DNA from: an uncultured Alphaproteobacteria bacterium
Lineage (GTDB): Bacteria; Pseudomonadota; Alphaproteobacteria; HIMB59; GCA-002718135
Direction: 5' to 3'
DNA length: 58,619 nucleotides
Assembly: GCA_902597015.1 (NCBI GenBank)
Contig: CACJWQ010000008.1
Span: forward strand, 1-58,619
Shown here one piece after another: positions 43,465 through 46,638 of this stretch; the stretch's first letter is position 1, and every line of letters begins with the position of its first letter. The translations under genes and the position numbers were made by a program. The notes below the pieces were generated by a model. The model was not told where the DNA came from. It ran no database searches and worked only from the letters and a program-made list of their open reading frames with translations.

Positions 43465-44622
43465 ATGGAAGTTTCAAAAAGAATATTTAATTTAGAAACA
43501 GAAACAGCATTCTCTATTCTTGCTAAAGCCAATGATTTAGCAGCCAAAGGTAAAGATATTATCAATTTGGGAATTGGACAACCTGATTTTCCAACACCAA
43601 TGAATATTCAAGAAGCTGCTATTAAAGCAATTAAAGATGGTTATCATGGATATACTCCATCAAATGGTATACCTGAATTACGAGAAGCAATTTCAGAGTT
43701 AATACTTAACAAATACAAAACAATTATTAAACCGGAAAATGTTTTAATAACTCCTGGAGGTAAGCCAGTAATTTTCATTTCAGCATTATTATTAGGAAGT
43801 GAAGACAGAGAAATAATTTTTCCCGATCCTGGTTTTCCAATTTATAGATCAATGATTAAATACAGTGGTGCAAAAGCTATTCCATTGAAACTTTCAGAAA
43901 AAGATAATTTCGAAATTAATACTGAACAATTAAAAGAGTTAATTTCTGATAAAACAAGTTTGATTATAATAAATAATCCCAATAATCCAACAGGGTCATA
44001 TATGAACAAGAAAAAGATTATTGATCTTGTAAATTTTTTAGAACAGTACCCAAACATTTATATTTTAAGTGATGAAATTTATAGTAATATTATTTTTAAT
44101 AACGAGCAAATGCCATCATTATTAGAATACGAAAGTATAAGAGAGAGATTAATAGTTCTTGAGGGATGGAGCAAAACATATTGTATGACAGGTTGGAGAT
44201 TAGGGTGGAGTATATGGCCAGAAGATTTAATTGAACATGCAAACAAAATATGTGTAAATTATAATTCCTGCGCTACCTCAATTTCGCAATATGCAGGATT
44301 AGAGGCAATAAAAGGTTCTCAAAAAGAAATAACTAAAATTGTTAGTGAATTTCAAAAAAGAAAAGAGTACGTTTTTAATGAACTAAATAAATTAGAAAAA
44401 ATTTCTTGTTTTGAACCAGGCGGTGCTTTTTATGCGTTCCCAAATATCTCAAAGACTGGATTAAGCGGAAATAAATTTTCAGAAGTAGCACTGCAAGAAA
44501 AAGGTGTTGCTTTAGTGCCTGGTTCAAGTTTTGGTGATAATGCTAGTGAATTTGTTAGAATAAGTTTTGCTAATTCTCTAGAAAACATTAAAGAAGCAAT
44601 TAAAAGATTATCTACAATATGA
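43465..44622 (+). CDS. pyridoxal phosphate-dependent class I/II aminotransferase
   Basis: Fold-type I aminotransferase of the aspartate aminotransferase family, probably acting on aspartate or an aromatic/other amino acid with 2-oxoglutarate. The N-terminal IINLGIGQPDFPTP, the cofactor-site NNPNNPTGSYM, the PLP Lys region GWSKTYCMTGWRLGW and the C-terminal substrate Arg region FVRISFANS are all present. Length is 385 residues. Its stop overlaps the glnB start by 4 bases, linking it to nitrogen regulation, but exact substrate cannot be told from sequence. Confidence 0.9.
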   Translation: MEVSKRIFNLETETAFSILAKANDLAAKGKDIINLGIGQPDFPTPMNIQEAAIKAIKDGYHGYTPSNGIPELREAISELILNKYKTIIKPENVLITPGGKPVIFISALLLGSEDREIIFPDPGFPIYRSMIKYSGAKAIPLKLSEKDNFEINTEQLKELISDKTSLIIINNPNNPTGSYMNKKKIIDLVNFLEQYPNIYILSDEIYSNIIFNNEQMPSLLEYESIRERLIVLEGWSKTYCMTGWRLGWSIWPEDLIEHANKICVNYNSCATSISQYAGLEAIKGSQKEITKIVSEFQKRKEYVFNELNKLEKISCFEPGGAFYAFPNISKTGLSGNKFSEVALQEKGVALVPGSSFGDNASEFVRISFANSLENIKEAIKRLSTI

Positions 44623-44960
44623 AAAAAATAGAAGCAATCATCAAGCCTTTTAAGCTTTCTCAAGTAAAAGAGGCTCTCCACGAAATTGGAATATCTGGAA
44701 TGACATTAATTGATGTTAAGGGTTTTGGAAGACAACGTGGATCGACTGGAGGCATGGATGCTAATGATGCTTATGATGATGAATTTTTAGCCAAAATGAA
44801 ATTAGAGGTAATTGTTGAAGATAGTCAAATCGATGAAGTTATAGAATCAATAAAATCTAGCGCATATTCTGGAAAAATTGGAGATGGTAAGATTTTTGTA
44901 TCCAATATAGAGCAAGTAATAAGAATAAGGACTGGTGAAAAAGACAGTGATGCTGTCTAA
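44619..44960 (+). CDS. glnB: nitrogen regulatory protein PII
   Basis: Trimeric sensor of 2-oxoglutarate, ATP and ADP. The core is canonical: MKKIEAIIKPFKLSQVKEAL, KGFGRQRG, SGKIGDGKIFV and VIRIRTGE. The T-loop is unusual: residues 42-53 (STGGMDANDAYD) have one more residue than the classical form and lose the usual Glu44, while a Tyr aligns with the uridylylated Tyr51. It is directly upstream of the glutamine aptamers and glnA, so the three probably act together. Length is 113 residues. Confidence 0.93.
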   Translation: MKKIEAIIKPFKLSQVKEALHEIGISGMTLIDVKGFGRQRGSTGGMDANDAYDDEFLAKMKLEVIVEDSQIDEVIESIKSSAYSGKIGDGKIFVSNIEQVIRIRTGEKDSDAV

Positions 44961-45001
44961 TTTTTCTTTACTTTTGTTTAAAAGCAAGTAATTAATCTAT
45001 A

Positions 45002-45052
45002 ATCGTTCAACTCTTTTAGAGTCGGAAGTAGGCATTGTGCCGAAGGAACGCA
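45002..45052 (+). ncRNA. glutamine riboswitch-like aptamer 1 (glnA RNA motif)
   Basis: The sequence matches the glnA RNA core. An outer stem CGUUC (45004-45008) pairs with GAACG (45046-45050), an inner hairpin ACUC/GAGU lies at 45010-45022, the invariant CGGAAGUAGG follows, then a GGCA/UGCC hairpin and GAAGGAACGC. This motif binds L-glutamine in characterised cases. It lies between glnB and glnA with no terminator before it. Confidence 0.9.
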
Positions 45053-45066
45053 TGCAAAAGTTATAA

Positions 45067-45121
45067 ATCGTTCAACCTATTTTTTATAGGTCGGAAGTAA
45101 GCCCAAAGCTGAAGGAACGCG
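45067..45121 (+). ncRNA. glutamine riboswitch-like aptamer 2 (glnA RNA motif)
   Basis: Second copy of the same fold: CGUUC (45069-45073) with GAACG (45115-45119), an inner hairpin ACCUAU/AUAGGU, the core CGGAAGUAAG and GAAGGAACGC. The paired stems differ in sequence from copy 1 but keep pairing, while the unpaired core is nearly identical, the pattern expected of a selected structure. It lies 87 bases upstream of the glnA start. Confidence 0.9.
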
Positions 45122-45207
45122 CATCAAAAGCAGATTTCATAACTAGAGCATGATTTAACCGGGTAACGCTGGATAGCATACCCTTTTGTTGAAGTAAGGA
45201 GATAGAT
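45122..45207 (+). promoter_or_regulatory. candidate expression platform and glnA ribosome binding site
   Basis: Between aptamer 2 and glnA there is a bulged hairpin at 45161-45183 (GGGTA pairs with TACCC, and inside it GCT with AGC). CAAAAG at 45125-45130 can pair with CUUUUG at 45183-45188. The AAGGAG ribosome binding site at 45196-45201 is just outside. No U-run terminator is present, so control is more likely at translation, which is inference. Confidence 0.45.
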
Positions 45208-46638
45208 ATGAAATTAAAAAGCTCGACTCCAAAAGATTTAATGTCTGAAATTAAAGATATGGACATTAAGATGGTTGATATGCGCTTTACTGATATACCA
45301 GGAACAACTCAACATTTTACAATACCAATTAAATTTTTAGACGAAGATATATTTTCTGACGGACTTGGTTTTGATGGATCTTCAGTAAGAGGTTTCCAAG
45401 AAATTCAAGATAGTGATATGATTGTTTTGCCAGATGCAACAACAGCTTATATTGATCCATTTTTTTCAGAAAAAACTTTAGCATTACATTGTAATATTAA
45501 AGATCCTGTAACTTTGGTTGATTATAGTCGTGACCCAAGAAATATTGCTAAAAAAGCTGAAGCATATTTGAAATCATCTGGTATTGGCGATACAGCATTT
45601 TTTGGACCAGAAGCAGAATTTTTTGTTTTTAATAACGTTCAGTTTGACTCAGGATCAAACTTTGCATTTCATGAAGTTGATTCTGTTGAAGGTACTTGGA
45701 ATAGTGGTGCTGATGAAAACCCAAACTTAGGTCATAAACCTAGACATAAAGAAGGTTATTTTCCTTTACCGCCAGTTGATACACTTCAAGATGTAAGAAC
45801 TGAAATGGTAATGACAATGCAAGACATTGGTCTTACAGTTGAAGCACATCACCATGAAGTTGCAACAGGTGGACAATGTGAAATTGATTTAGAATTTTCG
45901 CCTTTACTAAAAATGGCTGATGATATGATGAAATATAAGTACGTTGTTAAAAATGTTGCTAGACAACATGGAATGACAGCTACATTTATGCCTAAACCTT
46001 TATTCGAAGATAATGGTTCAGGTATGCACGTTCATCAAAGTGTTTGGAAAGACGGTGACACATTAATGTATAAAGAGGGTAACTATGCTAACCTAAGTGA
46101 TTTAGCTCTAAATTATATTGGCGGTATACTTAAACATGCACCTGCTCTTTTAGCTTTTTGTGCTCCTACTACTAATTCTTATAAAAGATTGGTCCCAGGC
46201 TTTGAGGCTCCGGTGAACATTGTTTACTCTCAAAGAAATAGAACTGCATCTGTTAGAATTCCTGCTTATTCTCAAAGCCCTAAAGCAAAAAGAATGGAAT
46301 TTAGATGTCCAGATCCAAGTGCAAATCCATACTTAGCATTCTCAGCAATGTTAATGGCAGGATTAGATGGAATTAAAAATAAAATTAATCCTGGTGATCC
46401 AACAGATATAAATCTCTATGCTGCTAGCGATGAAGTTTTGTCTAAAATTCAATCTACGCCTGGATCTTTAGCTGAATCTCTTGAAGCTCTTGAAAAAGAT
46501 CATGCATTTTTATTAGAGGGTGATGTTTTCACCAAAGATGTAATTGAAACTTATATTAGCTATAAAAAAGAGAGTGAGGTTGACCCTATTAATATTAGAC
46601 CTCATCCACACGAGTTTAAACTATACTACGACGTGTAG
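45208..46638 (+). CDS. glnA: glutamine synthetase type I
   Basis: ATP-dependent ammonium assimilation, making glutamine from glutamate. Beta-grasp and catalytic domains are complete: [56 protein letters not shown] with metal-binding His (as [11 protein letters not shown]), and [20 protein letters not shown]. Length is 476 residues. The adenylylation-loop Tyr is kept in INLYAASDE, though the usual DLPPEE after it is lost. ATG is 6 bases after AAGGAG. Control is probably through the two upstream aptamers. Confidence 0.97.

Follow-up and report, generated by a model that had tools for sequence, protein, structure and literature searches.

Two type-1 glutamine riboswitch aptamers lie between glnB and glnA in a 58,619-nucleotide stretch of alphaproteobacterial DNA (hereafter the window). 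Both this riboswitch class and its tandem form are already known; the reading that we favor on balance is that the two aptamers form a tandem riboswitch with one translational platform, switched off by glutamine, and that such switches run an RNA-governed nitrogen regulon.

Using cmscan with Rfam 15, in effect the Infernal search with the glnA model that the initial annotation had suggested, we recovered RF01739 twice on the + strand, at 45002-45054 (64.3 bits, E 5.6e-12) and 45067-45123 (64.3 bits, E 5.7e-12), with both matches covering the full length of the model (1-53) and exceeding its gathering score of 35. The two copies of the glnA motif which that annotation had placed in the glnB-glnA gap are thus borne out, with the right end of the feature moving from 45121 to 45123. 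Aptamer 2 is separated from the glnA start by 84 bases, and the aptamers sit in the predicted glnA 5' leader, which has the following features:

44619..44960, + strand: glnB, nitrogen regulatory protein P-II (ORF; Pfam PF00543, E 2.2e-33)
45002..45054, + strand: glutamine aptamer 1 (RF01739, cmscan), with P1 formed by CGUUC 45004-45008 and GAACG 45046-45050 (pairs from the alignment)
45051..45068, + strand: linker CAUGCAAAAGUUAUAAAU between the two P1 helices, its two ends fall within the Rfam matches; candidate pairing partner of the downstream element
45067..45123, + strand: glutamine aptamer 2 (RF01739, cmscan), with P1 formed by CGUUC 45069-45073 and GAACG 45115-45119
45134..45152, + strand: downstream element AUUUCAUAACU-AGA-GCAUG, predicted to pair with the linker (P0) or with the glnA start codon
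45161..45183, + strand: hairpin GGGUA...UACCC between the element and the ribosome binding site (from the sequence and the leader fold), differing in sequence from one relative to another
45196..45214, + strand: Shine-Dalgarno AAGGAG (45196-45201) and start region (from the sequence)
45208..46638, + strand: glnA, glutamine synthetase, 476 aa (ORF; Pfam PF00120, E 4.2e-139; Gln-synt_N and Gln-synt_C)

The cmscan alignments reveal the core CGGAAGUA and GAAG, along with three helices, in both copies. Between the copies three of the five P2 pairs and one of the three P3 pairs are altered on both sides with pairing kept, while the five P1 pairs and the core are the same. Hence, the earlier view of changed but still paired stems as direct evidence of structural selection stands for P2 and P3 but not for P1; likewise, of GAAGGAACGC, which had been taken as unpaired core, GAAG is indeed unpaired but GAACG is the 3' strand of P1. 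The leader (44990-45215) folds no better than its shuffles (z -0.58; matched or bettered by 51 of 200), so that the evidence for the aptamers comes from the covariance model and conservation rather than from folding energy. A search of 44900-45260 found no sigma-70 promoter. At the very end of glnB there is a terminator-like hairpin with a T run (44942-44958), which may separate the transcription of glnB from that of glnA. Two further candidates were rejected: a glnA start at the GCAUGA of one leader (L056, 495-aa frame), since its homologues start at MKFNCSTP further in, and a conserved leader peptide from GCAUGA, since the frames differ between relatives (by eye).

Taxonomic spread and the genes that follow the aptamers

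The window belongs to the order HIMB59, which we take to be also known as AEGEAN-169. In scans with strict filters, under which weak matches can be lost, the aptamer was recovered from 106 of 162 genomes of this order, comprising 106 of the 110 of the window's family and none of the 52 of a sister family (36 of these 52 being only reported as without a match and assigned to the sister genus by a 7-genus tally), from 97 of 100 genomes in a separate draw of the window's family, from 6 of 385 genomes in a draw across the class (the window's genome, the relative G006 and four from a family here called f97), and from 1 of 398 in a draw across the phylum, namely the window itself. Relatives in the window's family have genomes of 0.9-1.6 Mb, in keeping with the streamlined alphaproteobacterial host that had been surmised. 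The order HIMB59/AEGEAN-169 is described in the available portion of PMC10734472; the word riboswitch is absent from the main text of this paper and of PMC10308909, which deals with the same bacterial group. For one relative, the overlapping part of contig G003:C17 agrees with PTKX01000024.1 (Alphaproteobacteria bacterium MarineAlpha5_Bin7). Among the matches listed, most of the named long-linker records are AG- and AH- isolates called Alphaproteobacteria, which we take to be single-cell genomes; other labels among them are SAR116 (L038, L088), Pelagibacteraceae (L050, L124) and Chloroflexi (L117). Records from Polyangiaceae, Brevibacterium, Lachnospiraceae and Pirellula (L068, L085, L087, L156) proved to be chance pattern matches with no strict aptamer and are left out of the doublet counts.

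Several other architectures were encountered. Seven strict aptamers are alone, of which one (L008, genome G094) has a different leader; in the remaining six the sequence breaks off at a contig end or borders on unread bases. Three SAR86-type records carry three glutamine aptamers in a row (L047, 2194-2307; L055, 7396-7509; L104, 3142-3254) with linkers of 6 nt and 23 nt, the longer of which may form a small hairpin of its own. Additionally, 98 stretches of viral contigs match the tandem pattern (L158-L255, e.g. L169, L177 and L190), 97 of them with linkers of 6-10 nt. In most of the viral leaders inspected by eye, about a quarter, a possible hairpin lies over the Shine-Dalgarno right after aptamer 2, with changing but matching letters (CAUCU/AGAUG, CACCU/AGGGUG). 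In many of these viral leaders, though not in all, a linker reading AUUA or AUUG finds a match in the P3 loop of aptamer 2 (UAAU or CAAU; by eye), through which the copies might touch. Neither the alphaproteobacterial linker nor the form with the start next to the aptamer was found in the viral contigs, and given the absence of that linker no phage source is shown.

The window's assembly (1.2 Mb, 66.7% complete) contains six aptamer matches that form three doublets: the glnA doublet, and two more on contig 17 that each precede an ammonium transporter gene (Pfam PF00909, E near 1e-98). The relative G006 (96% complete) has eight matches in four doublets, one of which precedes a CP_ATPgrasp_2 gene. 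The genes behind doublets in the window's family are thus glnA and two ammonium transporters, joined in some genomes by a CP-ATP-grasp/alpha-E/transglutaminase operon, with the gene class of each leader judged from how the next long frame begins or from its motifs rather than by a family search. At one locus (L039) Alpha-E and transglutaminase-like genes come after the CP_ATPgrasp gene, as in an Anbu operon; the Anbu gene itself was not recognised within the part covered, which stops short of the next three same-strand frames (120-131 aa). Among five genomes of the window's genus the ATP-grasp gene is present in the four with eight aptamer matches and absent from G010, which has six; it was found in none of six genomes from other genera of the family, nor in the window's own, incomplete assembly. 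We infer that the doublets make up a small nitrogen regulon run by RNA, in a family apparently without GlnD. According to the available portions of PMC6376114 and PMC5666114, Anbu, from the same type of operon, is raised in nitrogen-limited Pseudomonas putida, and the former describes the role of the CP-ATP-grasp/alpha-E/transglutaminase operon as unproven. The open-access literature searched contained no paper pairing 'glutamine riboswitch' with 'ATP-grasp', or 'Anbu' with 'riboswitch'.

In the family f97, aptamers are found in 23 of 32 genomes (27 matches), and in all 23 aptamer-bearing genomes a single aptamer precedes a CP_ATPgrasp gene. Another aptamer lies about 0.6 kb upstream of an Amt-like match. 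The genome G906 carries three more single aptamers, on three contigs (L294, L295, L296), which are identical to one another, as are their flanks, and whose surroundings showed no match to five nitrogen queries; they may represent a repeated or mobile element, or an assembly duplication.

Glutamine-sensing proteins were surveyed in genomes of three families: eight of the window's family, each at least 90% complete, five of the sister family and three of f97. GlnD_UR_UTase was recovered from none of the eight, from all five of the sister family (which are without aptamers) and from all three of f97, and GlnE from none, four and none respectively. The window's family therefore appears to lack the protein glutamine sensor GlnD. 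The parallel between the presence of aptamers and the missing GlnD is suggestive, as an association rather than as cause and effect. One genome of the window's family (G001) is without aptamers and without GlnD, and the f97 genomes combine aptamers with GlnD in the absence of GlnE. With regard to a loss of NtrC-type regulators, considered as a possible explanation, Sigma54_activat matches above 220 bits were confined to the three f97 genomes; the scores were 67.6-83 bits in seven of the eight genomes of the window's family, 39 in the eighth, and 19-27 in the five of the sister family. By eye, the window's GlnB (44619-44960) keeps a T-loop tyrosine at the apparent uridylylation site, as judged against E. 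coli GlnB, though the tested relatives are without GlnD.

Linker, downstream element and a candidate shared platform

The gap between the P1 helices of the two copies is 18 nt in the window. Across 197 unique doublets (identical ones counted once) it is 7-11, 13, 17-18, 22 or 24-25 nt where as many as 400 were permitted, those loci that were fetched by pattern having been pre-limited to 6-36 nt, and it is 17-18 nt in all 28 unique doublets from the loci of the best Rfam matches in the window's family. A linker of 18 nt is too short for a platform between the copies, which is a statement of anatomy and not of function. A series of two self-contained riboswitches with separate platforms is nevertheless a conceivable arrangement, given that 157 doublets and 4 triplets are tallied in the available portion of PMC9481103 and termed pseudo-cooperative; with just 18 nt between the P1 helices here and gaps of 7-25 nt throughout the 197 doublets, we hold it to be very improbable. 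Rather, both aptamers probably feed one shared expression platform, an arrangement that would allow cooperativity, and the sharpened or cooperative glutamine sensing put forward in the initial annotation would depend on it.

The candidate for this platform involves the linker itself. Among 103 unique doublets selected for linkers of 15-20 nt, the linker CAUGCAAAAGUUAUAAAU recurs in 30 and there are 17 variants in all, with CAUGC-A1-3-AGUUAU as the common form of the long linker. GCATG is present 3' of aptamer 2 in 102 of the 103, the remaining one (L096) being cut by the contig end. These 102 represent 84 distinct leaders, or 82 upon removal of two with no start assigned (L052, L102), and all 82 display a fuller pattern of the downstream element. 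The linker and this element are predicted to pair as a helix, P0, which in the window combines 45051-45055 with 45148-45152 and 45059-45064 with 45139-45144. The calculated linker:element duplex lies between -9.2 and -11.3 kcal/mol in 82 of 82 distinct leaders, and compares favorably with shuffles in the five leaders tested (p 0.001-0.0145). Across 26 distinct P0 combinations the five CAUGC:GCAUG pairs and three of the six pairs of the second helix are always paired, and the rest are paired in 22-24; none of the 26 displays a two-sided base change, the changes being one-sided only. The internal loop of P0 is 3x3 in all 21 glnA leaders, 2x2 in all 36 amt leaders, and 1x2 in 22 and 2x2 in 3 of the 25 ATP-grasp leaders.

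As both strands are nearly invariant, covariation cannot prove P0, and the linker and element might instead be a protein binding site whose complementarity is incidental, with the aptamers acting in some other way. Given that the loop sizes agree on both strands in the glnA and amt leaders and that the pairing survives the one-sided changes, this is the least probable of the explanations we weighed. In 76 of the 82 leaders the P1 helix of aptamer 1 could be lengthened into the linker by the pairs allowed (hand count), but we do not rely on this since many phage leaders with the same upstream bases are unfit for such an extension.

The element has a second potential partner. In the window its segment AUUUCAUA (45134-45141) is complementary to UAUGAAAU at the glnA start (45207-45214) over 8 contiguous pairs. 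Comparable pairing of the element over the start codon extends to 8-9 contiguous pairs in 20 of 21 glnA leaders and to 6 in the remaining one. In the amt leaders the element sequence UUUCCAUA faces AUGGAG of the Shine-Dalgarno (in one leader, the assigned start), and 35 of 36 reach 7 pairs or more; the duplex fails in one amt leader, and the start of one may be misassigned. The ATP-grasp leaders show only 5-6 such pairs in 25 of 25. The cognate duplexes of the glnA and amt leaders (-6.1 and -6.2) are stronger than the class-swapped ones (-4.8 and -4.3), whereas the ATP-grasp elements bind the amt targets better than their own, so that the swap does not weaken the duplex. Leader by leader the start-covering duplex is not significant against shuffles, with p of 0.03-0.495 for glnA and amt and up to 0.865 for ATP-grasp among the 29 leaders listed. 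With few independent events and an AU-rich sequence, the support for start covering is moderate.

The hairpin at 45161-45183, which is followed by UUUUGUU, raises the alternative of transcription attenuation by an aptamer-governed terminator. The GGGUA...UACCC stem with four U after it in the window, and a U run after the hairpin in another glnA leader (L015, by eye), accord with this; however, the terminator scan did not report this hairpin, and in others of the glnA leaders, L010 and L012 among them, the hairpin differs in sequence and lacks a following U run (by eye), making attenuation quite improbable.

Proposed mechanism and direction of switching

We propose that the glnA 5' leader holds a tandem type-1 glutamine riboswitch, both aptamers of which would act on one translational platform. 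The linker and the element after aptamer 2 would form the P0 helix around aptamer 2, and the element, when released from P0, would cover the glnA start codon or, in the amt leaders, the Shine-Dalgarno. High glutamine would most likely favor the covered start and turn the gene off, such that plentiful nitrogen would result in less glutamine synthetase and ammonium uptake. Of the steps in this explanation, the direction of switching is the least secure. By established physiology, high glutamine should lower glutamine synthetase and ammonium transport, and we favor OFF because of the gene content (nitrogen genes, and Anbu under nitrogen limitation) and the position of the Shine-Dalgarno in f97. 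Specifically, two f97 species (L286, L291) have GAAGGAACGCAUAUG, with the gene start six bases after the AAGGA of the aptamer core, and no other Shine-Dalgarno was seen in them by eye. With the Shine-Dalgarno inside the aptamer, the folded, ligand-bound aptamer should hide the ribosome site, which favors glutamine-OFF logic.

The same doublet and platform might conversely operate as an ON switch, wherein bound aptamer 2 would nucleate P0 and the element would be kept off the start. P0 does enclose aptamer 2, and the characterised relatives are ON switches: the available portion of PMC6316151 describes the gifB type-1 and the type-2 class as activated by glutamine, opposite to OFF. Ensemble folding was modelled for 57 leaders, with the ATP-grasp leaders left out, and for 55 of these with the P1 extension. 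When only the five P1 pairs were forced, the accessibility of the start/Shine-Dalgarno rose in 34 of 35 amt leaders (35 of 36 in another run), as an ON switch would have it, while with P1 of aptamer 1 assumed to extend into the linker it rose in only 4 of 35, pointing to OFF. The glnA leaders showed no clear modelled change (start/Shine-Dalgarno unpaired 0.44 free versus 0.45 once both aptamers were imposed, with a rise in 12 of 20). An ON switch would also mean that glutamine raises glutamine synthetase and ammonium uptake, and it sits poorly with the Shine-Dalgarno inside the aptamer in the two f97 species. We accordingly regard ON as unlikely, albeit a serious contender.

Under the favored OFF logic, a broader scenario can be put forward tentatively: in this marine family GlnD and GlnE would have been given up and glutamine would be sensed by RNA, and RNA OFF switches with two aptamers and one platform would run glutamine synthetase, ammonium transport and the Anbu-type amide-ligase operon, with the linker as the switching strand.

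Relationship to known riboswitch systems

As a tandem arrangement, the doublets are reminiscent of the tandem glycine riboswitch, in which two aptamers of one class serve one platform (Table 1 in the available portion of PMC9481103), as proposed here; the ligand and fold are different, and contacts or cooperativity between the present copies would be conjectural. They depart from the pseudo-cooperative tandem riboswitches in that the 18-nt linker offers no platform of its own to each aptamer, again a matter of anatomy and not of function. The SAM-II/SAM-V pair of Candidatus Pelagibacter is likewise tandem, from a marine bacterium, and is said in the available portion of PMC11508383 to act on transcription and translation, but it joins two aptamer classes, unlike the two copies of one class seen here.

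With the type-1 class RF01739 our aptamers share full-length matches of 64.3 bits, and the available portion of PMC2864571 links earlier members to PII, glutamine synthetase and ammonium transporters, some of them in tandem; it also upholds what the initial annotation had stated of a class known from cyanobacteria and marine metagenomes. The 2018 review PMC6316151, in its available portion, restricts glutamine riboswitches to cyanobacteria, leaves the PII, glutamine synthetase and amt cases to uncultured strains, and reports selective L-glutamine binding for the type-1 member of Synechococcus elongatus. The present cases differ in having an alphaproteobacterial family as host, and in a possible linker-element pairing that is not described in the literature covered. 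As far as the literature searched shows, the host family, the regulon with an amide-ligase operon and the association with a missing GlnD are new, and the putative linker-element platform would be so too. The glutamine riboswitches that the available portion of the 2018 review (PMC6316151) had placed before PII, glutamine synthetase and amt genes only in environmental DNA thereby gain genome-level owners, and in the tested genomes the presence of the aptamer goes together with the lack of the glutamine sensor that is standard in proteobacteria. Moreover, the CP-ATP-grasp/alpha-E/transglutaminase operon would be tied to glutamine status in two alphaproteobacterial families, through different leader architectures.
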